A stretch of DNA of 64,000 bases from Chondrosia reniformis (Eukaryota; Porifera; Demospongiae; Chondrillida; Chondrillidae), in NCBI GenBank assembly GCA_947172415.1, contig OX359199.1:832001-896000 (forward strand). Direction: 5' to 3'. Under the pieces are notes generated by a model. The model did not search any database, was not told where the DNA came from, and saw only the letters and a list, made by a program, of their open reading frames with translations. Each line of letters opens with the position of its first letter. Positions within the stretch are counted from its first letter, which is position 1. Made by a program: the position numbers and the translations under genes. Shown in pieces: positions 6,386 through 52,910 of the stretch.

Positions 6386-7140
6386 GATCTGTACTCGTGA
6401 AACCTGTAGGCTTTCAGTTAAATTACCGGATGATTATGTATTCTCAATGCTGGCAGACCATCTCCAGCCGAAAGTTCCGAACAAATTGAATTAATTCCAA
6501 GAATTACCTAACTTGAAGCAACAAACTGATGTAATGCTGCTTTAGGGACTTTCTAAGGGGAAATCCCTACAGGTCACGTGGAACGCTTTCGCACAATACC
6601 TATGATAAATCATTTTTCGAGTAAAATACATATTTGATATATATCAAACATTATCATGACATAAAATATAACTTATACACAACACACATGGTGGAACATT
6701 TGGTAAATGTTCTATTAAGTCTCTAAACTCATGAAGATGCTGACCAAATCTACAGATACAAATAGTTGGGCTTCGTTTCTACCTTTCTCAATTGGGCCAT
6801 GGTCATACAGCTGTTTCATAGATTTCCACCCTTGATCAGTGACATGCATGCAGGATCCTCTATATACATGTATAGCTACTTAATGCATGTGCATGGCTTA
6901 ACATGTACATATAAGACTTATACTGTAGCTCACATAATATTTTCAGTGATTATTTGTGTCACACCATAGCATTAATATTTGCATAGGCTTAGCACAATGT
7001 TAGATCCACATGATTACTAAATATATAAAAGACATCAGTTTGCCCCTATACTACTTAGTTACTTAGTTGGGTAAATTTAAGTCTTTATTTGCTGTAATCA
7101 CGCATAGTTAACCAGTTATGACAGTACCCATCCCTTAATT
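6386..7140. other. Intergenic upstream of the kinase gene
   Basis: The first 200 bases must hold the kinase promoter and 5' leader; no TATA box is obvious. The remainder is AT-rich with no supported gene. Confidence 0.4.
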
Positions 7141-7878
7141 TTTTAGGCTTGTTAGAGGCTGTGCCCATGCATCTCTATGTGTGTATGTTGACACAGGTGA
7201 TCCTCCCTCTGGGCTGACATGAGTAGGCACACTAACTTTAGAGGTCAAGCATGTGAGGAAGTTTATTGGAAAATTCACTGCTTTATAAACACTATGACCA
7301 GAATGAATATTATTTCAGAAAATAAATTCTTCCTATAAGATAATTTCTATATACAAACTATATATACATATACGTATAAGAAGACATCATGCTAACATCT
7401 ATATGTATATATATTATCGAGGTGATCATGAGTATAACCTATATACCTTGTATATGACTAAGTCTCAATATGTTTACATGACATATACATGCATTGCATG
7501 GCTCATAAATGGCAAAGTTACAAACTTTATAAAACCATCAATATCCTTAATTTTATAAAGCTTAAGGCTTTCTTGTATATTATGTAGACTGAAAGTCTGC
7601 ATGGTTTTATTGTTATTACAATATAACCGTATGCCTGTAATTTAATCCAAATAATATATATAGCCTTTGCAAAGACATGCATGCCATTAAAATGGCCAGA
7701 TAATATATTGCCGCGGCCGGCCATGCACAAGTCTGTGATGTATACACAATAGTAATAGCTGAAATGAAGTTTAAGTATAAACTTAGTCACAATTCATTTG
7801 ATTTGCATGCATGGTACATCTACATGTATTAAAGCATGAATTTCTATTCCTACGTATTTAAGCATATTATGCAAAAAC

Positions 7879-8513
7879 TTATAACTCTACTCTTTGAGGC
7901 TTATTTTTAGCATGTTCAGTTAACATATACTGATTAAAGCTGTGATGGGCCTCATGGTAAACATAATCAGTAATCCTTTGCCTTTCCTGTTCAGAAAGAC
8001 TTCTTGGTCGACTTTCATAATAATGTTTTGTCCTTTTTCTAAGCAATCTTCTCTTAGTTTTCTTGTATACCAATATAGTCGGCTTTAAGCTAAAATTCAA
8101 ACTGGCTATCATGTAAGAAAAGTCCATGGTTCTATCTTGCTTTCGTAATGTAGCAAACTTTGCATAACTTGAAATACCAGTTCCCCGCTCAAAATGGAAG
8201 GACTGTACTTGGGCTTTATTTACTTGGGCATACATTCCATCTAAAATAGAATCCTTAACTTGTTGAGAAAGACCATGAGCTTTAGTTAGTTCTTCCACTT
8301 TTGAGGTAAACAAACTTCTGGACAGACTACGAAATATACTATTTGCTGTGAGGTCTTGAAATCTTTCAAAGGGCAGTTGCTTCACTGCAGCCTTGACAGC
8401 CTTTAGTTTTCCGGAGGGGTAATTTGATAGCAGACTTGATTCTACAGTTTGAGCAGAAACAAAGCTTCCAAATGCAACACTTGAAGCCAAGAGAGTAACA
8501 TTGTGACTTGCAT
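7879..8513 (-). pseudogene. A1: secreted-family paralogue with a frameshifted signal peptide
   Basis: From residue AQTVESS to the C-terminus PQRVEL this copy is almost identical to A2 at 10724-11359. The ATG matching A2's start is at 8511-8513, but one base is missing near 8470 (ccaaatgc here, ccaaaatgc in A2). The signal peptide frame therefore no longer joins the mature frame. The open frame upstream of AQTVESS has no ATG, only TTG. The next in-frame Met (within SILDGM) is past the first third of the protein. It is either a recent pseudogene or a sequencing error; the nearly unchanged body fits both. The mature part has no recognised domain. Confidence 0.65.
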
Positions 8514-8857
8514 TTTACTACAATGGGCTATATACCCAGCTAGTTTCGCCAATTTCAAGTGACAACATGATACGAATGATCAAGTCTCTAAGTAGGGATT
8601 TATATAACTGCAATAAGAGATCTAGGCTCTTATATCACTATATACAATAACAATGAAAAAAGGTCAAAAGGTTCCCACCAAATGCGTATAAACGCTAGGC
8701 GCTTCAAAATGCGTATTAACAGCGTATATTTTAATTTTTTTATTATTATTATTAAAGTGCATCATGTGCAAAGCACATGCCTGCATGCCTATATAACACA
8801 TATACCACGGTGCTTCGGTATATTTCTATACGCGTTCCCAAATAATCCCTATGCAAC
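8514..8857. promoter_or_regulatory. A1-B1 head-to-head intergenic region
   Basis: This region separates the divergent A1 and B1 starts. Compared with the 146-base A2-B2 spacer it carries about 200 extra bases with two copies of a motif like atgcgtatwaacrgc (about 8684-8732), a (TTA)n run near 8740-8755 and an imperfect palindrome around gtgcaaagcac. The last 25 bases before the B start (cccaaataatccctatgcaa) are shared with the A2-B2 spacer and are the best candidate for a conserved leader or core element. Confidence 0.4.
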
Positions 8858-9544
8858 ATGCCTAAACTGTTTTGGATTATTACACTGTGTCTCCCAGTTA
8901 TCTGTCATGGTATTGACCCGCAAACGGTTCTGGCAGGTGTCAAAGTTGCAAATGCAATGATCAAGCACTTCTCTACCGAGAAAGAGAGAACCCGAGATAT
9001 CACGGCTGCCGAGGAAGCTATACGGGGAACTACATTTGATCTTTTTAATGAGAAAGTCTCTAGTCAATTGTTGTTAGGAATTAAATTGACCGACTTTGAA
9101 AATGTTATTGATGGAATAGCAAAACGTTTGGACCTTCCCAATGATATAAAAGACTCTATCCTGGACGGAATGTTTGCCGCTGTGAACCAGGAGATAATTA
9201 AAGAATTTAAATTCACAAAAGGAGATACTGGAGATTTTTTGTTTGGTCGTGTAGCAACAGTAAAAACAGAGGAAAATACGATAGACCTTGCTTATGCAAT
9301 TTACATTTTGAAATTTAAGTTGTCTCCTAGAGTAATAGAACATACAAAAACAAAGAAATTCCTATGGATGCGCAAGAAGAAAGTGTGGCGAGAAACTCAA
9401 GAGAGAAATTTAAGTATCAAGGAAAAGGAAGATCTAGAAGAGTACTGCAAACAGAAAGCAATTGATGGTTTCAGAGAAAGCTACCAATCATTCATTACTG
9501 CAGACTCAAGTAAAGTAGCACAGCATGATCATGCGGAATTGTAA
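8858..9544 (+). CDS. B1: small secreted protein of an unrecognised family
   Basis: A 228-aa intronless frame. The N-terminus MPKLFWIITLCLPVICHG is a good signal peptide, so the product is probably secreted or enters the ER. The body is charged and mostly helical-looking, with the family blocks IKDSILDGMFAAVNQ, FLFGRVATV, TIDLAYAIY and NLSIKEKEDLEEY, and a basic stretch FLWMRKKKVWRET. The same blocks occur in B2, in C2 (VKDTLL, VFGRVAAV, TIDLAYAIY, ISIKEKDQLEMY) and, more diverged, in the A proteins (VKDSILDGM, TMDFSYMIASL, SLSEQERQRI). No known domain or catalytic motif is recognised. It is divergent from A1, with the two starts 344 bases apart. Confidence 0.75.
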   Translation: MPKLFWIITLCLPVICHGIDPQTVLAGVKVANAMIKHFSTEKERTRDITAAEEAIRGTTFDLFNEKVSSQLLLGIKLTDFENVIDGIAKRLDLPNDIKDSILDGMFAAVNQEIIKEFKFTKGDTGDFLFGRVATVKTEENTIDLAYAIYILKFKLSPRVIEHTKTKKFLWMRKKKVWRETQERNLSIKEKEDLEEYCKQKAIDGFRESYQSFITADSSKVAQHDHAEL

Positions 9545-9731
9545 AGTGTCGATCTGTGCTGAATGGCCTAGCCTTTATATAGTTAGCTAGATATCATTAG
9601 AATTGAAACGTTTCTAGCAAGCCAATAATATGCTTTATTGTGTTTCCTATGCATGGAGATAGACGTGTAAAAATATTAATCCTTTACATTAAGTGGAAAA
9701 GATTGTCACTTGCACTGCACATTTTTAATTA

Positions 9732-9765
9732 GACTACCATACCATGCTGAATATAGGTCTGGTTC
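9732..9765 (+). repeat. Short 5S rRNA-derived fragment
   Basis: The stretch gactaccataccatgctgaatata plus ctggttctcgt matches positions near 3-40 of the 5S gene at 24403-24521. It stops abruptly at the junction between duplication units 1 and 2. Confidence 0.6.
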
Positions 9766-10274
9766 TCGTTCTATCTCTATGATGATCCTCCTTTTGGGCT
9801 GACATGAATAGACACACTAACTTTAGAGATCAGGCATGTGAGAAAGTTTATTGGAAAGTTCACTGCTTTATAAACACCATGAATATTATTTCAGAAAATA
9901 AATTCTGAATTTCTATATACAAACTAGCAACACTGTAGTATATACATATACGTATAAGAAGACATCATATGCATGCTAACATCTATATCGCGGTGATCAG
10001 TCGTGAGTATATATAACCTATATAGCTATATACCTATATATAAAGATACTGTATAACTATAAGTCTCATTATGTTTATTACATATTATACATGACATATA
10101 CATGCATTGCATGGCTCATAAATGACAAAGTTACAAACTTTATAAAACCATCAATATCCTTAATTATATAAAGTTTAAGGCTTTCTTGTATATTATGTAG
10201 ACTGAAAGTCTGCATGGTTTTATTGTTATTACAATATAACATTGTATGCCTGTAATTTAATCCAAATAATATAT

Positions 10275-10501
10275 CACAGGATCAAATATCAGGTTTCAGA
10301 AGGCATGAAACTTATTTGAAACTCTATGAACTGCCAGGTTTCAAAAGGTATGAAAGTATGTATAAAACTCGGAAAGGGGGCTGTTAAAATTTGAAACCAG
10401 CGAAATTAATCTGTTAGCGCATTCATGAGCACCTTTTGAAACCTGGCTGTTCAGTTTCAAATAGATTTCAAACCATATGAAACCTGTAATTTGATCCTGT
10501 G
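10275..10501. mobile_element. Palindromic MITE, family 'cacaggatcaaat', copy 1
   Basis: It begins cacaggatcaaat and ends atttgatcctgtg, and the whole element folds on itself (caggtttcagaaggcatgaaa against the opposite arm). The empty site is visible in unit 1 near 7653, which shows that this copy inserted after or during the unit duplication. Likely target duplication TAT or TATAT. Related copies lie at 59914-60068 and 60192-60409. No coding capacity. Confidence 0.85.
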
Positions 10502-10723
10502 TATATGGCCTTTGCAAAGACATGCATGCCATTGAAATGGCCAGATAATATATTGCCGCGGCCGGCCATGCACAAGTCTGTGATGTATACACAATAGTAA
10601 TAGCTGAAATGAAGTTTAAGTATAAACTTAGTCACAATTCATTTGATTTGCATGCATGGTACATCTACATGTATTAAAGCATGAATTTCTATTCCTACGT
10701 ATTTAAGCATATTATGCAAAAAC

Positions 10724-11359
10724 TTATAACTCTACTCTTTGAGGCTTATTTTTAGCATGTTCAGTTAACATATACTGATTAAAGCTGTGATGGGCCTCAT
10801 GGTAAACATAATCAGTAATCCTTTTCCTTTCCTGTTCAGAAAGACTTCTTGGTCGACTTTCATAATAATGTTTTGTCCTTTTTCTAAGCAATCTTCTCTT
10901 AGTTTTCTTGTATACCAATATAGTCGGCTTTAAGCTAAAATTCAAACTGGCTATCATGTAAGAAAAGTCCATGGTTCCATCTTGCTTTCGTAATGTAGCA
11001 AACTTTGCATAACTTGAAATACCAGTTCCCCGCTCAAAATGGAAGGACTGTACTTGGGCTTTATTTACTTGGGCATACATTCCATCTAAAATAGAATCCT
11101 TAACTTGTTGAGAAAGACCATGAGCTTTAGTTAGTTCTTCCACTTTTGAGGTAAACAAACTTCTGGACAGACTACGAAATATACTATTTGCTGTGAGGTC
11201 TTGAAATCTTTCAAAGGGCAGTTGCTTCACTGCAGCCTTGACAGCCTTTAGTTTTCCGGAGGGGTAATTTGATAGCAGACTTGATTCTACAGTTTGAGCA
11301 GAAATACAGCTTCCAAAATGCAACACTTGAAGCCAAAAGAGTAACACTGTGACTTTCAT
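10724..11359 (-). CDS. A2: small secreted protein of the same family
   Basis: Intact intronless frame. The ATG at 11357-11359 is chosen because it gives 211 aa with signal peptide MKVTVLLFWLQVLHFGSCISA; an upstream in-frame ATG at 11404 would put 15 polar residues before it. The mature protein has VKDSILDGMYAQVN, FERGTGISSYAKFATL, TMDFSYMIASLNFSL, a basic cluster KKTKRRLLRKRTKHYY and C-terminal SLSEQERKRITDYVYHEAHH. These align block by block with the B and C proteins. It has a single internal Cys before cleavage and none after, so disulfides are unlikely. Function unknown. Head-to-head with B2. Confidence 0.75.
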   Translation of the reverse strand: MKVTVLLFWLQVLHFGSCISAQTVESSLLSNYPSGKLKAVKAAVKQLPFERFQDLTANSIFRSLSRSLFTSKVEELTKAHGLSQQVKDSILDGMYAQVNKAQVQSFHFERGTGISSYAKFATLRKQDGTMDFSYMIASLNFSLKPTILVYKKTKRRLLRKRTKHYYESRPRSLSEQERKRITDYVYHEAHHSFNQYMLTEHAKNKPQRVEL

Positions 11360-11505
11360 TTTATTTAATTCTACCCAGCTAGTTTCGCCAATTTTAAGTG
11401 ACATTAGACTATATCATTTTGCATATTATACAGCGATAGTGCAGATAGTAGTATCTACCGTATTAACATAAAATACGCTCGTTTCCCAAATAATCCCTAT
11501 GCAAT
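11360..11505. promoter_or_regulatory. A2-B2 bidirectional intergenic region
   Basis: Only 146 bases separate the A2 and B2 ATGs. Any promoter must serve both directions. AT-rich patches (gcatattatacag, taacataaaata) are present, but no motif can be assigned with certainty. Confidence 0.4.
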
Positions 11506-12192
11506 ATGCCTAAACTGTTTTGGATTATTACACTGTGTCTCCCAGTTATCTGTCATGGATATATTGACCCGAAAACGGTGCAGGCAGGTGTCAGTGTTGC
11601 GAATGCAATGATCAAGCTCTTCTCTACCGAGAAAGAGAGAACCCGAGATATCACGGCTGCCGAGGAAGCTATACGGGGAACTACATTTGATCTTTTTCAT
11701 GAGAAAGTATCTACTAAATTATTGTCAGGAATTAAATTGCCTGACTTTGAAAATGTTATTGATAGAATAGCGAAGAGGTTGGGCCTTCCCAATGATATAA
11801 AAGACTCTATCCTGGACGGAAAGTTTGCCGCTGTGAACCAGGAGATAATTAAAGAATTTAAATTCACAAAAGGAGATACTGGAGATTTTTTGTTTGGTCG
11901 TGTAGCAACAGTAAGAACAGAAAATACGATAGACCTTGCTTATGCAATTTACACTTTGAAATTTAAGTTGTCTTCTAGAGTAATAGAACATACAACAACA
12001 AAGATATTCCTGTGGATGCGCAAGAAGAAAGTGTGGCGAGAAACTCAAGAGAGAAATTTAAGTATCAAGGAAAAGGAAGATCTAGAAGAGTACTTCAAAA
12101 AGAAAGTAATTGATGGTTTCAGTGAAAACTTCCAATCATACATTACTGCAGACTCAAGTAAAGTAGCACAGCATGGTCATGAGGAATTGTAA
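11506..12192 (+). CDS. B2: small secreted protein, paralogue of B1
   Basis: 228 aa, starting MPKLFWIITLCLPVICHGY (signal peptide), about 90% identical to B1 by eye. Differences cluster in the first third of the mature chain (KTVQAGVSVANAMIKLF against QTVLAGVKVANAMIKHF) and near the C-terminus. It keeps IKDSILDGKFAAVNQ, FLFGRVATV and TIDLAYAIYTLKFKL. Intact frame and no intron. Function unknown. Confidence 0.75.
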   Translation: MPKLFWIITLCLPVICHGYIDPKTVQAGVSVANAMIKLFSTEKERTRDITAAEEAIRGTTFDLFHEKVSTKLLSGIKLPDFENVIDRIAKRLGLPNDIKDSILDGKFAAVNQEIIKEFKFTKGDTGDFLFGRVATVRTENTIDLAYAIYTLKFKLSSRVIEHTTTKIFLWMRKKKVWRETQERNLSIKEKEDLEEYFKKKVIDGFSENFQSYITADSSKVAQHGHEEL

Positions 12193-12389
12193 AGTGTCTG
12201 TGCTGAATGGCCTAGCCTTTTTGCATAGTTAGCTAGATATCATTAGAATTGAAACGTTTCTAGCAAGCCAATAATATGCTTTATTATATATGTTACCTAT
12301 GCATGGAGATAGACGTGTAAATATGCATATATTAATCCTTTACATAACAAGTGGAAAAAATTGTCACTTGCACTGCACATTTTTAATTA

Positions 12390-12489
12390 GACTACCATAC
12401 CATGCTGAATATACTGGTTCTCGTCCTATCATCAAAGTCAAGCAGCATCGGGCTGGGTAGTTAGTACTTGAATGGCCGGTGACGGCCTG
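12390..12489 (+). pseudogene. 5S rRNA pseudogene / 5S-derived repeat
   Basis: About 100 bases match nucleotides 3 to about 95 of the 5S gene at 24403-24521, including ccatgctgaatatactggttctcgt and gtcaagcagcatcgggctggg. Small changes occur in the internal control region (tagttagtacttgaatggcc), and the last 20 bases are absent. It lies at the right end of duplication unit 2. Confidence 0.8.
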
Positions 12490-12736
12490 TTGTAATCACA
12501 GCCAGTTAAGACAGTTACCCATCCCTTAACCCAACAGGCTTGTTAGAGGCTGTGCCCATCTCTATGATGATCCTCCTTTTGGGCTAAAGTGCATGAGTAG
12601 GCACACTAACTTTAGAGGTCAAGCATGTGAGGAAGTTTATTGGAAAGTTCACTGCTTTATAAATAATGCTGTCACAACCATTAAAAAGTAAATTCTTTCT
12701 ATTATGTACATACTAAACAAATAGCTACACATGCAT

Positions 12737-13502
12737 GGCTCAGTTGAGGATGTACATTGATACAGGAATATATAGAGCATGACTGTTGCTGAGGCTCACT
12801 AATGACATATTATTTTAAATTAAGAATGCAACAAACATCATATATAGTTATATACATTCTACGATACTATATATATGAATAAACTTAGACATTATAAATA
12901 TATTGCATAGTGTCACATAATAAGTGAGACTTTTGTAATCCTGCATTTACATGTACATGTACATGTGAGGTTTCATAGCTATATAAAAAATTCTCCACTA
13001 TAAACTTGCAATTGACAGCCTCAAAATATTGTTAGTTCCATGCAACCACGTGCAAAAAGTGGGCGTGGTAACCAGAAGTGGGCGTGGCATCCCTAAATAT
13101 ATTCGGGCATAGCTATGCCTCCTGGTATATATACAGCCATTTCATGGATAGAATTAATACTGACAAAATAGATCTGACATGAACAATCTGTGGTTTGGAC
13201 TACTGTTGGGAACCAGTACACTATTTATAGGATTTAATGGTGCATGGTTTGGCATCATTGACACTATGATAAATCTGTTCTCGAGTGAAGTGGAGAAGGT
13301 AGTCGATATCAGGGAAACGGTTGATGATATTCGCGACACAAATTTTGATTACTTCGATGAAAAAGTGGAGAGCGAACTCATGTTTGGTATCGAGCTATCA
13401 GAGTACGATTCCGTAGTTAATTCACTAGCAATTAACCTAGGTTTACCAGACACTGTTAAGGACACACTTTTGTCAGCCAAAAATCAGCTATATATACGGA
13501 GC
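12737..13502 (+). repeat. Segmental duplicate of 22436-23189
   Basis: About 760 bases nearly identical to 22436-23189, starting inside the retrotransposon reading frame (gttgaggatgtacattgata) and ending within gene C. A few single-base changes and small indels are visible. Confidence 0.85.
13059..13087 (+). promoter_or_regulatory. Paired gtgggcgtgg motifs upstream of C1
   Basis: Two copies of gtgggcgtgg, 19 bases apart, about 100 bases before the C1 ATG; the same pair is at 22754-22782 before C2. They resemble GC-box/KLF-type sites. A TATA-like ggtatatata follows at about 13123. Confidence 0.35.
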
Positions 13503-13601
13503 AATGGAAAATTTATATTCAAACCATGTGTTATATTAATAAAAAATTTCAATTTGTCAGATAACTGTGAAACCAACATATATCATGGTACATGTGCATA
13601 G
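13179..13601 (+). pseudogene. C1: truncated copy of secreted-family gene C2
   Basis: The first 100 or so residues, signal peptide MNNLWFGLLLGTSTLFIGF included, are the same as C2 except one residue (LGLPD for LGLPG). After KNQL a 4-base insertion (agctatatacgg for agctacgg) and then unrelated repeat DNA replace the rest. The frame ends in 30 residues of repeat-derived sequence. All downstream family blocks (FGRVA, TIDLAYAIY, SIKEK) are missing. It could at most make a short secreted peptide. Confidence 0.75.
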
Positions 13602-13955
13602 GAAATGTCTGGCGAAGTTTTGCTTAATTAATTATATAAATGAGCAAAATAATCAAGATAATAATGAAAAATTCAAGGTTACGATTGCGCAATCTGATGA
13701 TGTATTATGATGTTTCCACCTCTCGTATATTGCTCCGTATACACTTTTAGTGAATCTTGTGACGTTGCGAAAACGTCACCGCCTCGTTGCTAAAGAAGAC
13801 CATCCCTTTCGTGAACGGCTGTGACAAGTCGACGCTCTCCTACGAGAAGGAGCTACGGAATAAGCGAGTTGTAGCGAAGGTTAGATAAAGCGTATTTGTA
13901 TACGTTCATGTTAAGTTTAAGCCAGAATTGTTGCTATATATTGATGTAAAATAAA
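13503..13955 (-). mobile_element. Dispersed repeat, inverted copy of 20455-20910
   Basis: The reverse complement matches 20455-20910 throughout (for example ggttagataaagcgt and gacaaattgaaattttttat). Part of it also matches 18104-18210. It begins exactly where C1 loses homology to C2. No coding capacity is recognised. The element type is unknown. Confidence 0.75.
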
Positions 13956-14080
13956 TAAAATAAATTCTTCTGTATACAAGAGTAAGTAAAGAAACAGTAG
14001 TTCTGAACTGAATTCCTAATAGTTTGTGATCTAAGGGACCTGAAATAATATTTTGTTAAATCAAATTCATGATTGCCATA

Positions 14081-14137
14081 ACTCAGCTATTATGGGTGTG
14101 AACATGGAGACATGTTCACACCCCAAATGGCTGAGCT
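14081..14137. repeat. Perfect hairpin, 13-bp stem with 4-base loop
   Basis: gggtgtgaacatg at 14094-14106 pairs perfectly with catgttcacaccc at 14111-14123 around a gaga loop. Imperfect pairing extends outward to ctcagc / gctgag. It is probably a small foldback repeat. Otherwise 13956-14334 shows no gene. Confidence 0.6.
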
Positions 14138-15231
14138 GAGCTGAACATGGAGCTTGGGGTTATATAAACTGTACAAGTAATTGTTTTTCAGGTATACCTG
14201 CTGTACTATACCAGTATATGTTCATGTACCTATACCAGTGATCAATGTAATGGAAATCCTTGTGCGTACTGTGTGCTTATTACTAATAAGTAATTTATAT
14301 TGTTACTATGGGCATGTTTGTATATAATATGTAGGTGATAGGTAAGAGTAGTGAGGTGGTGGGGGAGGGAGGAGATGAGGAGAAATACCTCATTGCTACC
14401 AGCGAGCACCCGATTGCTGTCTTCCACCGTGGGGACTGGATGGATCCCACTGAACTACCAAAGAGATATGCTGGCTTCTCCACCTGCTTCAGACAAGAGG
14501 TGGGAGCACATGGCAGAGACACAAGAGGAATATTCAGAGTCCACCAGTTTGAAAAGGTTGGCTAATAGGTCTGTATAGTTCATATACTTCCCTCTGAAGA
14601 GCTGTGCATAGGAATATCTACACTAATGGTTAATAGGAGATGTTAAACATGTGTAATTGGTAGTTGTTAATGATATGCATATTGAAATACTTTGACAAGA
14701 CAAGCTTTCATACATATAAATAAACAATCGGTACACTCAGGTGACTTCCATTATACCTAGCAAATGCTTGAAAGGTCAGCTGATTTCAGATGGTTAATGA
14801 AATTCATTGAGTTGAGTATGTACATGTTCATTTTACATGCAGCTAATGGAATAGGTAAAGAATAATCCCTAATGAAACTGTAACCACATTTCTATATCAG
14901 AGGATGATATAGTATTTTTTAAATAGGAACTTAAAGAGTATATGATGAGAGGAGCCTAATGTCAAATTGTCATGGTTGTCTGCTATATATTCCAGTCCCT
15001 TATCTCATGACTATATCTCATTATCCAACTTGGTGTGTTTAGGTTGAACAGTTTTGTCTTACTAGTCCTCATGATGGAGAGTCTTGGAAGTTATTTGATG
15101 AAATGATTGACAATGCTGAGAAGTTCAATCAGGCACTCGGTCTACCTTATAGAATAGTCAATATAGTCTCTGGAGAACTGAACAATGCTGCAGCTAAGAA
15201 ACTTGGCAAGTCTAGTAAAAATGTCTGCCTC

Positions 15232-15604
15232 CCTGCCCCACCGACCTACCTCCTTCCCTTCCTGCCTGCCCCACCGACCTACCTCCTTCCCTTCCTGCCT
15301 GCCCCACCGACCTACCTCCTTACCTCCCTGCCTGCCCCACCGACCTACCTCCTTCCTTCCCTGCCTGCCCCACCCACCCACCTCCTTACCTCCCTGCCTG
15401 CCCCACCCACCCACCTCCCTCCCTCCCTGCCTGCCCCACCCACCTACCTCCCTCCCTCCCTGCCTGCCCCACCCACCTACCTCCCTCCCTCCTTGCCTGC
15501 CCCACCCACCTACCTCCCTCCCTCCTTGCCTGCCCCACCCACCTACCTCCCTCCCTCCTTGCCTGCCCCACCCACCTACCTCCCTCCCTCCTTGCCTGCC
15601 TGCT
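15232..15604 (+). repeat. 33-bp pyrimidine-rich minisatellite, about 11 copies
   Basis: Unit like gccccacccacctacctccc plus tccctccttgcct, repeated head to tail just inside the SerRS intron. It opens long Pro/Leu-rich frames in several registers that are not genes. Confidence 0.9.
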
Positions 15605-15625
15605 TGTAGATATATTTTTGGTTGT

Positions 15626-15845
15626 TACATGAACACAGGGGTGGGTCAGCTAGTGTTACATGAACACGGGGGTGGGTCAGCTAGTGTTACATGAACACAG
15701 GGGTGGGTCAGCTAGTGTTACATGAACACAGGGTGGGTCCACTAGTGTTACATGAACACAGGAGTGGGTCAGCTAGTGTTACATGAACACAGGGGTGGGT
15801 CTGTTAATATTATATAAACACTGGGGTGGGTCCGCTACTGTTATA
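15626..15845 (+). repeat. 31-bp minisatellite, about 7 copies
   Basis: Unit gttacatgaacacaggggtg plus ggtcagctagt, with the last copies diverged (ttatataaacactggggtgg). Confidence 0.9.
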
Positions 15846-15984
15846 AAGAGATGTGTAGCAGTGGGAGGATCTTACTGAACTCAGCAGATTATATTGCAGA
15901 TATGTGTGTAGTCTCCAGTGTCCAATATCACCATGATCATGCAATCACTGGAATTTAGGTTAATATTAGTTACATGTGCATATA

Positions 15985-16495
15985 CAGTGGAACCTTGCTT
16001 AACGACCACCTCAGTATTAAGACCACCTCAAAATTGCAACACATTTTTTTGGTCCCGAGTAATTCTTGTATCTCGCACTGTACTTTAGGTGTTCAGAAAA
16101 GTGACCACCTCGGAATTCACTTTTACGACCACTATTTTCGGACCGATATTAAATAACCGGCAAATAACCTTGGTATAACAACCAGGTGTGAAAACAAAGT
16201 TCGAGTTCCGGTCGTCACCAATGCCATATCTCATAGAAAACGTTTGTGCAAGCTTTACCTTAGTAAAAGTGCTTTCTAAATCCCTTTTGCTGGTTCAATG
16301 CTCGACGTTAAGGAAGAAAAAGCTTATTTTTCAAGGTAGAAAACGAAAGCCAGCCGAGCGCCCGCCATTTTGTTAACAGATATTTCCTACGTCTACATGT
16401 ACGTAATAATTTCACAATTTCACAATTAGGACCACCTCAAAATTAAGACCAAAAAATGTGGTCCCAAAGGTGGTCACATTTGTGAGGTTTCACTG
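15985..16495. mobile_element. Tigger/pogo-like MITE
   Basis: Terminal inverted repeats cagtggaacctt and aggtttcactg, flanked by TA on both sides; subterminal 'gaccacctcaaaatt' motifs recur in both orientations. TA target and CAGTG ends are typical of pogo/Tc1-mariner elements. No transposase is visible. Confidence 0.75.
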
Positions 16496-16650
16496 TACAT
16501 ATGAATACAATGGCAAATATTTGAGGTAGCTAATGTTACAACTAGATATCCTTATGTATAGTAAATTATGGGAGTGTTACTTTAACTATAGATATAGCTA
16601 ACCTAACAGCTATAATAATGAAAGATTCTTCCCTAACTATGTCAAACTTA

Positions 16651-16820
16651 CCTTTGAAAGGGTTCATCTTTCAATCTCTTTTGAGCATCTGCACAGCCTC
16701 TTGGTTGGAATTCTTGTCAGATGTTTCAATCCAGGGATCAGTTACTGCATGAAGAGGTCTCCTGTGAGGTCAAAACATGCATCTTTAGATACTCAAAAGA
16801 TAAAAGATGAACTTCTTTAA
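16651..16820. mobile_element. Foldback repeat, family 'ttcatctttcaatctcttttgag'
   Basis: The arms ggttcatctttcaatctctt and agataaaagatgaacttctt are inverted. The centre (cagatgtttcaatccaggga ... gaggtctcctgtgaggtcaa) is a degenerate version of the middle of the copy at 51642-51814. Confidence 0.55.
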
Positions 16821-17552
16821 AGTGTATGGAGCTGCTATTTGTGTGTTACATATTGAAAGTCTTTTGGGCTTCACATGTAACATCTTCTTCTCCATGCACA
16901 GACTGAGTTTGTTCACATGTTGAATGCCACATTATGTGCCACTACTAGAACCATCTGTGCCATCCTGGAGAACTACCAGACAGAGGAGGGTGTGGCAGTG
17001 CCGGATGTACTAAAACAATGGATGCCTCCTCATTATAGAGACTTTATCACGTTTGTGAAGCCAGCCCCAATTGATGAGGAGAAGTGCAAGTGCAAGAAAG
17101 AAAAGAAGAGGAAATAATTATTTATTTGGTACATACATAATAATGTATTCCTATGTTTTGATTGGTGTAGGTCATGATCAGTTATTATTGCAATTAAAAA
17201 CTTTATGTAGATTCCTAAGCATCAACCATAACACTGTCCACCAAGTAAGTGTATAATAATAGATCGAGTCCCTTTTGCAAAGAGAAATGCTGTGCTATTA
17301 TTAATGGTAAGGTTCTCCTTAAAGGTGCGGGGTAAACGGCATGGTGGTCCAATAAGTAGAGAAGCTATATAAAAGAAGCTGATCATGAAAGAATGAAAAA
17401 TATAAAGTTTGGTAGCTTCATTGTTATCACCCAAACTGGTGGTGTGACCAGGTAAAACATGTTTTATAGTCAAGTTTTATCAATTGTCAACTCAAATAAA
17501 AAAGGAATTTAAAGTCTTACCATATGGGCATTGATCTTATGTAAATATTATA

Positions 17553-18018
17553 TAATATTAAAATTACAATCAAGTACTACACAGTACAAGTTACAAATTT
17601 ATGAGATCCAAGTGACTATGTAATATTAAAATTACAATCAAGCTATATAGTACTAGCTACACAGTGCCAGTTACAAAATTAAAGAGATCCAAGTGACCCC
17701 TAGGATAATCAATATTTTAAATAGTACGTATAGTTGCAGACTTTGAAATTCTTAACTACTGCATGCATAGAGAGTAATAGTTGATACAGATCATCCAATT
17801 GCAAGGTAGAACACATGGCCTACCAATTACCTTTTCACATCTTAGTATAGACTGATGATGATGCATGCATCTGCATGCCATATATCAACAAAGGTTCCAG
17901 TCTTAAAGGGGTCTAAGCTAATAACCACAGCAGATTTGATTTGCCTTGTGAGGGAGCTAAGAATACCGACGGTTGGTTGCATGCATTCGCATAATCAACA
18001 GGGTTAGAGACCATTTTG
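17553..18018 (+). repeat. Left arm of a long inverted repeat
   Basis: About 466 bases, reverse-complement match to 19358-19823. Near its outer end the arm has two tandem copies of a block around taatattaaaattacaatca and agatccaagtgac. Between the SerRS end (17117) and this arm no gene is seen. Confidence 0.85.
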
Positions 18019-19357
18019 TAACTTGTACACAAGGGACATCATATGACATACATATATAAAGGCCTTGGCCTTTTATGTCCTTGTGTATTTTCGCCAGATG
18101 TTTGACATACACATGTACCATGATATATGTCGGTTTCACAGTGATCTGACAAATTGAAATTTTTTATCAATATAACACATGGTTTCAATATAAATTTCCC
18201 TTAGGTTTTCTATAGTCCTATGGCCTTTTATATACAGACTTTATCCTCTGTTTTCTAACAAACGAAGACCTAAATCAAAAATCCCTTAATTTCAAATGAG
18301 TTTTATACCCTAAACTTTATGATACTATTCTCATTCTGTTGCTAGGTCCTTTCTTGGAGCCATATGAATTATTTAATTATACTATTTATTTATTTATATT
18401 AGATTACCTTATATAGTATATTGTAACTTGTACTGTATATAGAGAGAATATATATAATGCACCACCTCTGAACTCGGTGCTTGTGTATGTGACTGTCTGG
18501 GAAGTGTGGCCTGGTATATAGCAATTGCGGACCCCACATTTTACCGAATACAATCAAATAACGGACGGCATCTCCAACTGCTGACAAAAGGCCAAGGACT
18601 ATTCACAAGTAATCGCTAATCTCTACTGTTGCACGTGACACAATGCTATCTACCGTGCAAAGTTCAAAGTTCAATCAATGTTCATTCAATGCACCCAATT
18701 ACTCAATCAGACATGTGTAGTAAAACAGAGTCCTAGATTGGATGAAATAGCTACAAAATAACCGCTTCGTTAAATAACCGTTTTGTTCAAAAGTAAAGAC
18801 CTAGGCTATCTGACGGTACAAAACTTGCGACAGTTGGCGGCCATTTAATATTGTGCAATACCGCAACGATTAAATTTAGTTCAAACCCTTATCTTAGATG
18901 TGATGAAAGCAGACTATGGCTACGGTTACCTAACTTTAGACAGCGTTTAAAATTCTGAAATGCTATGTTTCCGATGTTTGATGAAGCTGCCCGTTGACAG
19001 ATGGTCCGAAAGGTCTAGCAAAAGAAGCAAGCCACCAGAAAACGCACGATCAGAACTTTGCAAATGAAACACTCGTAGATTGCTGTTGTTACACTGGACT
19101 TGCATATAGCATTATATGAAACGCTACTCACTGTTTATTTAGGTGATACAGCGCTGTCCGTGTGATGGTGTCCGAACATTGCATACTTACTCTACAATGT
19201 ACTTAAATTAATAATAGTTTTGTAGTTTTTAATAAGATTATGAGTCCTAGATTGCCAGTTATTGCATAGCTGGTGCTGCTCATGTGTTCCATTGAAAGCA
19301 CACATGTGTCTGGTAGATTAAGATAAAGAAATACACTTTAATATTGTACGTGCAAAA
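18019..19357. other. Spacer of the long inverted repeat
   Basis: It contains a partial copy of a dispersed repeat (18104-18375, direct match to 20811-21080) and a piece around 18458-18530 (tgcaccacctctgaactcgg, gtgcttgtgtatgtgactgt) that recurs at 56480-56540. No transposase or other gene is recognised in it. Confidence 0.5.
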
Positions 19358-19823
19358 CAAAATGGTCTCTAACCCTGTTGATTATGCCAATGCATGCAAC
19401 CAACCGTCGGTGTTCTTAGCTCCCTCACAAGGCAAATCAAATCTGCTGTGGTTATTAGCTGAGACCCCTTTAATACTGAAGCCTTTGTTGATATATGGCA
19501 TGCAGATGCATCATCTTCAGTCTATACTAAGGTGTGAAAAGGTAATTGGTAGGCCATGTGTTCTACCTTGCAATTGGATGATCTGTATCAACTACTACTC
19601 TCTATGCAGTAGTTGAGGATTTCAAAGCCTGCAACAGTACTAGTGTGACTAAAGTCTTGTACTGTTTAAAATACTGATTATCCTAGGGGTCACTTGGATC
19701 TCTTTAAATTTGTAACTTGCACTGTGTAGCTAGTACTTGATTGTAATTTTAATATTACATAGTCACTTGGATCTCTTAAATTTGTAACTTGTACTGTGTA
19801 GTACTTGATTGTAATTTAATATT
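19358..19823 (-). repeat. Right arm of a long inverted repeat
   Basis: Reverse complement of 17553-18018; for example ggtctctaaccctgttgatt here against aatcaacagggttagagacc there. About 90% or more identical by eye, with short indels. Confidence 0.85.
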
Positions 19824-20008
19824 TTATATATTTGCTAGTAACTTGCACTGTGTAGTGTACTTGAGTGTAATTAGCTAACAAAGTATTTCACTATACTTAT
19901 AGACATTCGCTATAAGCAATTTCGTTACTGTATGTAGTACACATGGAAAACGTACTAACATGGATAAGAATAAAGCCTAGTTGAAAGTCAGCAATATGAA
20001 TTTACTAA

Positions 20009-20311
20009 TTCTGGACGTTTCGACCCAGAGGTCTTCATGCATCAGCAATATATGAGGAGTGGGAATACAATTCAGTATAAATAGGAAATTAGTAAATTCA
20101 TGTTGCTGATTCTGGACGTTTCGACCCAGAGGTCTTCATGCATCAGCAATATATGAGGAGTGGGAATACAATTCAGTATAAATAGGAAATTAGTAAATTC
20201 ATGTTGCTGATTCTGGACGTTTCGACCCAGAGGTCTTCATGCATCAGCAATATATGAGGAGTGGGAATACAATTCAGTATAAATAGGAAATTAGTAAATT
20301 CATGTTGCTGA
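20009..20311. repeat. 101-bp tandem repeat, 3 copies, with hammerhead-like motif
   Basis: Copies start at 20009, 20110 and 20211 and are almost identical (ttctggacgtttcgacccag, aggtcttcatgcatcagc, ggagtgggaatacaattcag). On the reverse strand each unit reads CTGATG-CATG-AAGACC-TCTG-GGTC-GAAACGTCC. This is a hammerhead-like core with a 4-base insertion in the conserved CUGAUGA box. Confidence 0.8.
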
Positions 20312-20454
20312 CACTCAACAAAGCTTTATTCTCGTAATGATCGCAACAAACACTCCTAATTCCTACACATGGACAAGTAAAAATATTAACAGATAACGTA
20401 AGAAGAGAAGACAGAGCTTAAATTACCAAAGTAATACGGTCGACCAAACGAATC

Positions 20455-21080
20455 CAGTCTTTCGCATCAATATAGGAACAACTCTGCCTCAAACTTGACG
20501 GGAACGTATACAAAAACGCTTTATCTAACCTTCGCTACAACTCGCCTGTTCGGTAGCTCCTTCTCGTAGGAGAGCGTCGACTTGTCATAGCCGTTCTCGA
20601 AGGATGATCTTCTTTAGCAACGAGTCGGTGACGTTTACGCAACGTCACATGATTCACAAAATGTGTGTACGGAGCGACATACGAAGGTGTTGGTGACGCA
20701 TTAGAAAAACATCACAATACATCACCAGCTTGCGCAATCGTAACTTTGAATTCTTCATTATATCTTGATTATTTTGCTCATTTAATTAAGCAAAACTTCG
20801 TCAGACGTTTCTTATACACATGTACCATGATATATGTTGATTTCACAGTTATCTGACAAATTGAAATTTTTTATCAATATAACACATTGTTTGCATATAA
20901 ATTTCCCATAGGTTTTCTATAGTCCTATGGCCTTTTATATGCAGACTTTGTCCTCTGTTTTCTAACAAACGGAGGCCTAAATTAAAAATCCCTTAATTTA
21001 CAATGAGTTTTATACCCTAAACTTTATGATGATATGCCCATTTTGTTTCTAGGTCCTTTCTTGGAGCCATATGAATTATT
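20455..21080 (+). mobile_element. Dispersed repeat, direct copy
   Basis: Its first 450 bases are the inverse of 13503-13955. Its last 270 bases match 18104-18375. Likely a non-autonomous element; its ends are not defined. Confidence 0.65.
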
Positions 21081-21264
21081 TAATTAATTAATTATATTAT
21101 TATTATTATTATTATGAGTACAATAAATCAGTAAAACGGGGATATATACTAACATCAAAAATCAAAATACAACCTTAACATAAAATTTAAATTTACAATG
21201 GATAAATAATAATAATAATATTAATAATATTATATAATATATATATAATATAATGTAAATTTGT

Positions 21265-22503
21265 TTAGTTCATTGTTGACATGATGGACATTGCGTTCCC
21301 CTTCTGAGTGGCAACTGCCAGCTGATGGCAGTGTGCCATGTCCTCCCCTGTGATGGATCTAATTCTGGTTGTCAGATTACGAATAAACTCCATGGTTTCT
21401 GGTCCCATCACGCCAGTAGTCTCGATTGCCACTGGGGTGAATTCATGAATGGTTGAAAGCTCTTCATACTTTTTCTTTTTCCTGCTTTCGGCTATAGCAG
21501 CCACTGAACCAGCCTCTCTGGTTGCTTCTTCCACATAGGATGGAGCAAATGTGTCAATGCATGTAGCATCCCATATAAGGATGCGACCTCTTGTCCAGGG
21601 AGTGATGGTTACACCATCAGGTCGTTTCCCATCTGACCTAGAGAGACCTGATGGTTCCAGCCGAGATGGAATATTAGCTGTTGCAAGGGACCGATGGATG
21701 ATGTTATTGATAGCAGCATGTCTGAAGTGCCGTCCAGTGTTACGATAGCAAGATAAGCCATGAGTAGCGTATTGGTCAACATCATGCCCGCAAAGATGAC
21801 ACTTGTATGGATGGCAAATTGGAGCACCAAGACGAAGGGCTGTTGCAAGCTGTACCTCATCATCATTCATACGTAACCCAACAGCGGAGATGGGCAGGGC
21901 ATTGATCCATGCACCAGATTCTTTCACATTCGCCGCCAGGAGACGGGCACGACTGACGCTATTTCCAGCACTTTCAATTAAGGTGTGATAAGTGGCTTTA
22001 TACTGGGGTTCATCCCAGGCCTGTTGTTTCCTGTCCCTTGGTGAAGCTGGAGGAGGGCAATCCACTGATTGAAGCCAAAGATTAAGAGCATCCTCTTTAG
22101 GGACATAAGATACACCAGTGAGCCTACCTGGTAGAAGTTGTTGGATCAGTGGTGAGGAGGCAGCAGCAGAGGCCAAAAAGGCAGAAGGTGCCAGCTGAAC
22201 ACTCCTTCTAACACCAAGGCCACCACAGCCAACAGGGAGAGTTTCCTGCAACCAAGTATGGTGGTCCTCAAAGGGGATGTTAAGGGTCAAGTTCAGTAAG
22301 GAACGAAGCTCCTGGTCAAACACCTCAAGGAGGGGCGAGTGAAAGCATGGTGCAGTGCGGAGGAGGTACAAAGTTTTAGGAATAGCTAATGCACAACGAA
22401 TCAAAAAGAGAACCTGCTTTGACAGGTGTGGTAATCTGTTGAGGATGTACATTGATACAGGAATATATAGAGCATGACTGTTGCTGAGGCTCACTAATGA
22501 CAT
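21265..22503 (-). mobile_element. Non-LTR retrotransposon, 3' end of ORF2
   Basis: Open 412-aa frame, 5'-truncated. It has the post-RT region (LPVGCGGLGVRRSVQLAPSA), then a C-X2-C-X9-H-X3-C zinc knuckle (CHLCGHD ... HGLSC), then KRPDG followed about 16 residues later by WDATC. That order, with the PDG and D residues of a PD-(D/E)XK fold, is that of elements with a restriction-like endonuclease (R2/CRE/NeSL-type). The RT catalytic core is absent because of truncation at 22503. AT-rich triplet and TA repeats at 21090-21240 lie past the stop, as expected for a 3' tail. The frame is intact, so the insertion is young. Confidence 0.8.
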
Positions 22504-22870
22504 ATTATTTTAAATTAAGAATGCAACAAACATCATATATAGTTATATACATTCTACGATACTATATATATGAATAAACTTAGACATTATAAATATATTG
22601 CATAGTATACACATAATAAGTGAGACTTTTGTAATCCTGCATTTACATGTACATGTACATGTGAGGTTTCATAGCTATATAAAAAATTCTCCACTATAAA
22701 CTTGCAATTGACAGCCTCAAAATATTGTTAGTTCCATGCAACCACGTGCAAAAGTGGGCGTGGTAACCGGAAGTGGGCGTGGCATCCCTAAATATATTCG
22801 GGCATAGCTATGCCCTTGGTATATACAGCCATTTCATGGATAGAATTAATACTGACAAAATAGATCTGAC
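22504..22870 (+). promoter_or_regulatory. C2 upstream region
   Basis: It begins directly at the truncated end of the retrotransposon. It has paired gtgggcgtgg motifs at 22754-22763 and 22773-22782 and a TATA-like ggtatataca near 22817, about 50 bases before the ATG. It is nearly identical to the C1 upstream region. Confidence 0.4.
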
Positions 22871-23716
22871 ATGAACAATCTGTGGTTTGGACTACTGTTG
22901 GGAACCAGTACGCTATTTATAGGATTTAATGGTGCATGGTTTGGCATCATTGACACTATGATAAATCTGTTCTCGAGTGAAGTGGAGAAGGTAGTCGATA
23001 TCAGGGAAACGGTTGATGATATTCGCGACACAAATTTTGATTACTTCGATGAAAAAGTGGAGAGCGAACTCATGTTTGGTATCGAGCTATCAGAGTACGA
23101 TTCCGTAGTTAATTCACTAGCAATTAACCTAGGTTTACCAGGCACTGTTAAGGACACACTTTTGTCAGCCAAAAATCAGCTACGGAGCAGAGATAAGGCA
23201 CTAAAAGAATTTCATTTTGCTGCTGATCCAGAAGGTCACACTGGCCCTGATTTCATAAACGTTTTCGTGTTTGGCCGAGTTGCTGCTGTAAGACGTCCGC
23301 TCGACTGTTGGATCTGCTGGCTTTGGCAAAGAGAGACTATTGATCTCGCTTACGCTATATATATCATGAAGTTTCGATTGCCTCCGATGTTACAGGAACA
23401 CCACAAAATTGTTACATATATCGCTTCGTCTGAGGAAAAGAAATGGAATGAAACTGCACGAAGAGGTCAAATAAGTATTAAAGAAAAAGACCAATTGGAA
23501 ATGTATTTCAGAAAAAAAGCCCTGGAAGGGTTTAAAGACAGCTATATAGCATTTATGTCTGATGAACAGAAAGAAAGCCTGGCTCGCTTGGGAACTGGTC
23601 AACAAATATCTCAATCGACAGGATCAAAGTCTAAGAAAGAAGGTGAAGAATTTTCTGAAGAGCAGAATGAGCCCGTTGAAGAGGAATCTAATCTGCCAGC
23701 TCACGATGAACATTAG
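22871..23716 (+). CDS. C2: secreted-family protein with acidic tail
   Basis: 281 aa, intronless. Signal peptide MNNLWFGLLLGTSTLFIGF. It shares the family core with B1/B2: FDYFDEKVESELMFGIEL (B: FDLFNEKVSSQLLLGIKL), LGLPGTVKDTLL, VFGRVAAV, ETIDLAYAIYIMKFRLPP and ISIKEKDQLEMYFRKKALEGF. Two features set it apart: a 10-residue insert PLDCWICWLW between FGRVAAVRR and TIDLAYAIY, and a hydrophilic, Glu-rich C-terminal tail of about 45 residues. It is the only intact C-type copy. Function unknown. Confidence 0.75.
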   Translation: MNNLWFGLLLGTSTLFIGFNGAWFGIIDTMINLFSSEVEKVVDIRETVDDIRDTNFDYFDEKVESELMFGIELSEYDSVVNSLAINLGLPGTVKDTLLSAKNQLRSRDKALKEFHFAADPEGHTGPDFINVFVFGRVAAVRRPLDCWICWLWQRETIDLAYAIYIMKFRLPPMLQEHHKIVTYIASSEEKKWNETARRGQISIKEKDQLEMYFRKKALEGFKDSYIAFMSDEQKESLARLGTGQQISQSTGSKSKKEGEEFSEEQNEPVEEESNLPAHDEH

Positions 23717-24402
23717 AATTGAACTGCACAATTATCAGTAAATTTAGCGATTGATTTTTTTAGCATAAAGTCATACTTTAAAATTGAATTGTACTAAGGA
23801 AGTCTGTAATGTACTTCAGTGTGCTGCCAACAGGTTTTTGTCTTTTCTGGTGTACAATGTAACCTTCTTATCAAACAAGCTTTTCTTTGTTATTCTCACT
23901 CCTCAGTCAGAGTCTATTGACACCCTATAACCCTACTACACGTTTCAGTGCCTCCTCTGTTTCTCTCTAGTGTAGTATCCTATATTATGTAGCTTGTAAT
24001 TACTTTGAACAAATGCTACTCTTAACAATTATAGTTCTTATCATGAACCCACAAGTTATATATACACAGTATAACAAATAGGAAAATATACATTTAGTGC
24101 ACCCCTTAAGGTATATTTATTCTTTCAATAGGATTTTCTTATTATTATTATTATTATTAGAGTGCCCATGCATACAATGAATGTATAAAAAGCAAACCTA
24201 TATATATATATATCTTAACCATCATTTTCCAGGCCTACAAGTAAGCCACCATTGATAACAAATAGGAAAATATACATTTAGTGCATGCTTTAAGGTATAT
24301 TTACTCCTTCAGTAGGATTCCAGACTGACCCTAAAAAGTAAAGCCACCATAAATGGGTCATCTCATACAGGTATAAAACACTAGGATGTTCAGCGTCACT
24401 CG
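23717..24402. other. Intergenic between C2 and the 5S gene
   Basis: Nothing gene-like. A block around taacaaataggaaaatataca occurs twice (about 24064 and 24256), which suggests a small local duplication. A (TTA)n run lies at 24138-24160. Confidence 0.4.
24372..24378 (+). promoter_or_regulatory. TATA-like element of the 5S gene
   Basis: tataaaa begins 31 bases before the first base of the 5S transcript, the usual place of an upstream pol III TATA element. Confidence 0.6.
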
Positions 24403-25137: not shown

Positions 25138-29272
<4,135 letters not shown>

Positions 29273-29664
29273 TCAGATAGATGAAGAAAATGACTTCACT
29301 CGACTCGCGACGAATGTAGGACGTTTTTTAAATGTGACCTCTGATCCTGTAAAATGATTGGATGGTGACTTTCCCGCCCCCAGGAAAGGTTGCGGTCTAC
29401 ACCAGGAGATATGTCGCTTTATTATGACGTCATACTGTTCTGAGTCTCCTTGGCGCTTCCATAATATGCAAACCCGAATATCTTAATTATCCATACCATT
29501 CTTAATTTTTAGTGAATTAAATGTCTGTGATGTTTATTGAATAAGCTTATATAAAGCTTCATCGAAATATGAACAGAATTGACTCAAAATAATATTAACA
29601 AAATACAAGTATGCATAATTATCAACATTTTGTGATAAAGAGAATGTCCTCTAAAGCAGAAGCG

Positions 29665-31029
<1,365 letters not shown>

Positions 31030-31434
31030 CTAAAGAAAACAGATTACGAAAAGTTCTTTGGAAACCCGCGATGGAAGAGACGGCAGTTAAGACACGGAGG
31101 ATTATATGCGTTGTTCGTTGCCAGGAAGTGATGGCGATTGCGTGTCTACATACAGGTCCCTGTAAGGTTTCAATCGCCATTATGTCGATCTGTTATACAA
31201 ATAGACTCGTAATTAACACTATTTATACTTTTCAAAGCTATATTTTTGCATTGGGGACCTTAATAATTAACTATTCAGCTATAGTAATACTTCAAACAGT
31301 TTCTATATCCCTATTTCAGCATGATAATAATAGTACATAAGGTTGATATAGGTTATATACAAATGTTGGGGATAAAATGTGATATAAATAAGAAGTTATA
31401 TGGTATGTTACAAGATGGTAAAAGGATCTAAAGG

Positions 31435-52910
<21,476 letters not shown>

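Follow-up and report, generated by a model that had tools for sequence, protein, structure and literature searches.

A putatively lineage-restricted protein family of the sponge Chondrosia reniformis with possible endoplasmic reticulum retrieval tails

When an orphan protein carries a signal peptide, secretion is the usual assumption, and the strict C-terminal pattern for retrieval to the endoplasmic reticulum (ER) is [KRHQSA][DENQ]EL (a PROSITE entry). For the KDEL receptor, tail positions -1 and -2 matter most and -3 and -4 less (PMC9220330); position -4 is proofread by the receptor residues D50 and E117, and HEEL, present in human FKBP proteins, is named as a retrieval signal (PMC8248988). 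Chondrosin is a protein of 199 amino acids (aa) with an isoelectric point (pI) of 5.11 and a signal peptide of 21 residues, cleaved between AEA and SK (PMC7459819). Here we analyse a window of 64,000 nucleotides from chromosome 11 of the kidney sponge Chondrosia reniformis (GenBank assembly GCA_947172415.1, contig OX359199.1, positions 832,001 to 896,000 of the forward strand; positions below are those of this window unless a contig is named), which holds six copies of a family of small proteins in three subtypes, A, B and C. We tentatively read it, with somewhat less than even confidence, as a lineage-restricted family whose A and B members would be made together, be kept in the ER by the KDEL receptor and escort secreted cargo; that A and B are ER-luminal residents, a step judged from their sequences and taken by itself, is slightly favoured.

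The copies comprise two B-A pairs in tandem (B1-A1 and B2-A2), each divergent and head-to-head, together with C1 and C2. Along the chromosome their order is B1(-), A1(+), B2(-), A2(+), C1(+), a seryl-tRNA-synthetase-like fragment (by eye), repeats and C2(+). A1 (8858..9544, + strand) and A2 (11506..12192, + strand) encode 228 aa each, B2 (10724..11359, - strand) 211 aa and C2 (22871..23716, + strand) 281 aa. C2 is distinguished from the other copies by 10-11 additional residues that separate the FGRVA block from TIDLAYAIY and by a longer tail, acidic near its end; that these additional residues represent a short intron is not favoured, since no frame-keeping GT-AG pair was seen by eye. In the B1 remnant (7879..8514, - strand) the mature part is open, but the signal-peptide part has one base fewer than in B2, so that the mature part lies in a different frame. 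C1 (13179..13601, + strand) is truncated, with 104 family codons followed by repeat sequence (140 aa in total). A distant seventh copy, D (267 aa), lies 3.4 megabases off, outside the window (C11:4259898-4260698, - strand), and is adjoined by a retrotransposon gag-like frame, recognised by eye (L015:203-1006(-)). An earlier sequence-only reading had listed five genes or gene remnants; the frames are present, but the count is six in the window plus D. The ordered blocks which it described as common to the family stand in the same order in all five long copies aligned.

Signal peptides were judged by hydropathy alone, which peaks within the first 30 residues at 2.49 in A1 and A2, 2.32 in B2, 1.77 in C2 and 1.10 in D. 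On this basis A1, A2 and B2 may be signal-peptide proteins, as described earlier for the family; B1 has no signal peptide in frame. D has a weak hydrophobic stretch at the N-terminus and a strong one at the C-terminus. The pI spans a wide range (A1 6.9, A2 8.9, B2 10.0, C2 4.9, D 9.4), and cysteines beyond residue 22 number one in A1, none in A2 and B2, two in C2 and three in D. A low-confidence structure prediction places helices behind the hydrophobic N-terminus, followed by a region of three strands and by a long helix at the C-terminus.

The evidence for ER residence lies at the C-termini, which read HAEL in A1, HEEL in A2, RVEL in both B1 and B2, and HDEH in C2; -EL is thus the ending of all four A and B frames, and position -4 is occupied by H or R. 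In the window, 6 of 233 stop-to-stop frames of at least 60 aa, nearly all of them non-coding, end in -EL, and four of these are the A and B frames; the remainder (2 of 229 non-A/B frames) are both short and represent one repeated sequence. Given the composition of the family, the chance of an -EL end is 0.008 and that of [KRHQSA]xEL 0.003. Ahead of their tails, A and B can no longer be aligned well, but -EL is present in both, and A1 and A2 have different residues just in front of it. A search of the C. reniformis genome found one KDEL receptor locus (C4:7957804-7958531), which, with three exon pieces joined, agrees with the human receptor at each of the nine positions compared (R5, R47, D50, N54, E117, W120, E127, Y158 and R169). 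As a positive control, a 15-residue frame with an acidic run followed by KDEL was found behind one calreticulin locus.

In the mechanism that we propose, the single-frame A and B products would enter the ER by their predicted signal peptides, and the KDEL receptor would return them there by means of the C-terminal H/R-x-E-L. B2 and A2 would be transcribed divergently from the 146 base pairs between their starts (11360..11505), a presumed shared promoter. Because of this divergent transcription from one short interval, A and B are probably made together and are maybe partners, a co-expression and partnership that we infer from the layout. The opposite charge of B and C, together with the divergent A-B arrangement, would fit mutually binding partners. 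C2 may be released or held otherwise, because it has no valid tail. The likeliest job would be folding help for, or escort of, secreted cargo; the body of Chondrosia is made largely of collagen, and a matrix protein would be the obvious candidate. This role is a guess, and as a step on its own we consider it rather unlikely.

Several observations weigh against such ER residents. A and B provide two independent tails at most, and only one if the tail was inherited. The strict retrieval pattern fits A2 alone, HAEL of A1 and RVEL of B conforming only to the looser x-x-E-L, and there is no valid tail in C2 or in D, which has a hydrophobic end. The control is thin: the scan took in seven of the nine FKBP loci along with two calreticulin loci, and a KDEL-ended frame was present at one of the nine loci scanned and at neither the other calreticulin locus nor any of the seven FKBP loci, whose last exons perhaps lay outside the stretches taken. 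No ER-stress motif (ER stress response element (ERSE), ERSE-II or unfolded protein response element (UPRE)) occurs in the four upstream stretches scanned, and no A[AT]TAAA poly-A signal within 400 bases downstream of A2, B2 and C2, one being found for A1 and B1.

These observations leave real, though lesser, room for the view of the earlier reading, namely that the family consists of truly secreted matrix or surface proteins whose -EL ends are a coincidence or a leftover. The hydrophobic N-termini, the missing tails of C2 and D and the loose ones of A1 and B all agree with it, and the chance of an -EL end, although small, still counts if the tail had a single origin; a point against this view is the retention of -EL in four of four A and B frames despite the A1/A2 differences immediately before it. 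By hydropathy the proteins appear to enter the secretory route, but the word 'secreted' is doubtful, since the C-termini of A and B are of the kind that serves ER retrieval.

Alternatively, the proteins could be membrane-active defence proteins, cytolytic or antimicrobial, which are stored in the secretory route and released upon wounding. We regard this as improbable. In the structural search, beta-lactamases, SecB, PAS and LOV domains scored an equal or higher Z than the Cyt / volvatoxin fold, no Z reached 8, and the models (mean predicted local distance difference test score (pLDDT) 55) are too weak for naming a fold. Nor does a Pfam match speak for it, the best expectation value (E) for the six proteins being 0.019, under the curated cut-off. 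In the other libraries searched for relatives, no NCBIfam family was hit by the five members searched. The best E against PHROGs was 0.0096, with one member each and no clear match, and the best values against PDB sequences (0.88 for the A2 protein, 0.4 for the A2 profile and 0.27 for D) were taken as chance. No relative was confirmed among viral contigs (searched with the A2 alignment, D and C2), prokaryote genomes (the A2 alignment) or plasmids and phages (A2 protein only), and a literature search by the block peptides of the family retrieved no paper, nothing on the family having surfaced otherwise. The family is consequently rated an orphan against the Pfam, NCBIfam, PHROGs, PDB, viral, prokaryote, plasmid and phage sets, the animals covered being the C. 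reniformis genome only, and the earlier statement that it matches no familiar domain agrees with the lack of a described family in Pfam, NCBIfam, PHROGs and PDB sequences. Also against a defence role, chondrosin differs from the family in length and cleavage site.

Within the family, A, B and C are clearly homologous. Local-alignment scores, expressed as standard deviations (s.d.) above 500 shuffles, are 39 for A1-B2, 31 for A2-B2, 61 for A1-C2, 57 for A2-C2 and 11 for B2-C2. D belongs to the family via A only, because it scores 16 with A1 and 17 with A2 versus 4 with B2 and 0.8 with C2. Whole-genome searches (117,379,552 bases in 15 contigs) with A2, B2, C2, D and the A2 core as queries returned only the six window copies and D, although distant multi-exon relatives were possibly missed, as no intron model was used and only the best candidates were scored. 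D was recovered by A2 (E 1e-7) and by the A2 core (E 1e-4), but not by B2 or C2, and itself recovers A2 and A1 (E 5e-7).

Over the 223 codons compared between A2 and C2, differences fall at 200 of 528 nonsynonymous sites and at 121 of 142 synonymous ones (p 8e-25); for A2 and B2 (207 codons) the counts are 246 of 491 and 93 of 131, respectively (p 1e-5). This synonymous excess shows long purifying selection between A and C and between A and B. The site counts and shuffle scores together bear out the proposal that the subtypes are homologous, much diverged and members of an old family. Of the six longest frames from stop to stop within 7000-24000, five belong to the family (286, 232, 232, 229 and 211 codons); by comparison, the longest frame of a first-order Markov sequence of equal length had 119 codons on average and 178 at most (200 sequences). 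Constraint appears looser since the latest duplications: A1/A2 have a nonsynonymous divergence (dN) of 0.054 and a synonymous divergence (dS) of 0.073, with an omega of 0.74 (bootstrap 0.36-1.78) and hence no clear constraint, B1/B2 differ by four nonsynonymous and no synonymous changes in 194 codons, and C1/C2 by one of each in 104 codons. That there is no working gene family at all, but relics or transposon-borne frames, is highly improbable; in its favour, B1 and C1 are broken, A1/A2 lack clear constraint and repeats surround the copies, but against it the frames exceed the Markov null, the synonymous excess in A2/C2 is strong and only seven places were found genome-wide, unlike a transposon gene.

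Self-alignment of the window delimits two tandem units, 7198..9775 (B1-A1) and 9783..12430 (B2-A2). Their B halves (7625-8564 vs 10471-11403) are 96.5% identical and their A halves (8835-9775 vs 11483-12430) 92.5%, with looser matches in the flanks (7198-7659 / 9783-10274, 78%; 7112-7289 / 12502-12663, 79%). Mismatches amount to 2 in 600 aligned bases of the B half (7782-8381) and to 40 in 740 of the A half (8832-9581). The simplest reading of this near-identity of the B half, unlike the A half, would be a later homogenisation of the B half. Positive selection in A, suggested by A1/A2 being far more different than B1/B2, was considered and rejected, as the interval around omega includes 1 and homogenisation is the better reading. 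A repeat of about 230 bases with inverted-repeat-like ends (10275-10501; similar copies at 59917-60065 and 60192-60409) is present in unit 2 and absent from unit 1, and was therefore probably inserted after the duplication. Another repeat (8603-8823) lies between B1 and A1, and the B2-A2 interval is without it; portions of this repeat match at least dozens of places in the genome.

C1 lies in a segmental copy (12740..13490) that is 98.5% identical to 22435-23182, a segment in which the initial portion of C2 lies. As the start of the C1 segment falls within a frame that lies upstream of C2 and looks transposon-like by eye, the source is probably C2. A frame resembling the end of a retroelement protein, likewise recognised by eye (21265-22509(-), 414 aa from stop to stop), ends just upstream of C2, and the C1 segment includes about 75 bases of it. 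Differing codons number 2 of 104 in C1/C2, 4 of 194 in B1/B2 and 35 of 227 in A1/A2, in keeping with the earlier view that the local copies are recent. Both tandem and segmental duplication, as had been proposed, are seen, but 'expanding' has to be replaced: as judged from the copies, the history of the family is one of birth and death, not plain expansion, because the B1 frame was lost and C1 was cut short, i.e. two of the six window copies are broken.

Between C1 and C2, seryl-tRNA-synthetase-like exons were recognised by eye (14335-17117). One of them has six more matches of 91-96% identity on contig C10, so that this fragment is perhaps a stray copy and C10 perhaps the place where the gene proper is amplified. 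A minisatellite-like array with many self-matches lies within this region (15225-15600). Further along, four single-frame copies of beta-tubulin, a name given by eye on the basis of the first frame, form a tandem array at 25138-32773, with 95.6-97.7% identity in the listed pairs.

To return to ER residence of A and B, a bolder version of it, which we regard as a long shot, is a sponge-specific ER helper system whose diverged partners range from acidic (C) through neutral to basic (A) to strongly basic (B). With A and B head to head and made together, this system would be kept by the KDEL receptor, serve an unusual secreted cargo such as the collagenous matrix of this sponge, and evolve by duplication and gene conversion faster than is normal for ER machinery. 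Where a secreted product would usually be assumed, the C-terminal end here argues for ER residence, and different experiments are called for. If true, the animal would have added residents of its own to the ER, a compartment whose machinery is regarded as a conserved toolkit, and since Chondrosia is used as a source of collagen, the clients would be worth finding.

Among known systems, the Cyt / volvatoxin fold is set apart by the lack of a Pfam match, by the equal scores of other folds and by the low-confidence model. Chondrosin resembles the family in being a small protein with a signal peptide from the same species, but, compared by description only, it matches none of the member lengths (228, 228, 211, 281 and 267 aa), and its AEA/SK site is absent from the family by eye; it was set aside as a member on these grounds. 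ER-luminal clients of the KDEL receptor, e.g. calreticulin or an FKBP with HEEL, differ in that the family matches none of their families in Pfam, that the A1 and B tails depart from the strict pattern and that C2 and D are without a tail. Nevertheless, A and B share with such clients a hydrophobic N-terminus and an H/R-x-E-L end, and a receptor with conserved residues is present in the sponge genome. Neither lineage-restricted families nor ER residents are new as kinds, and their combination would be uncommon, not a new class.
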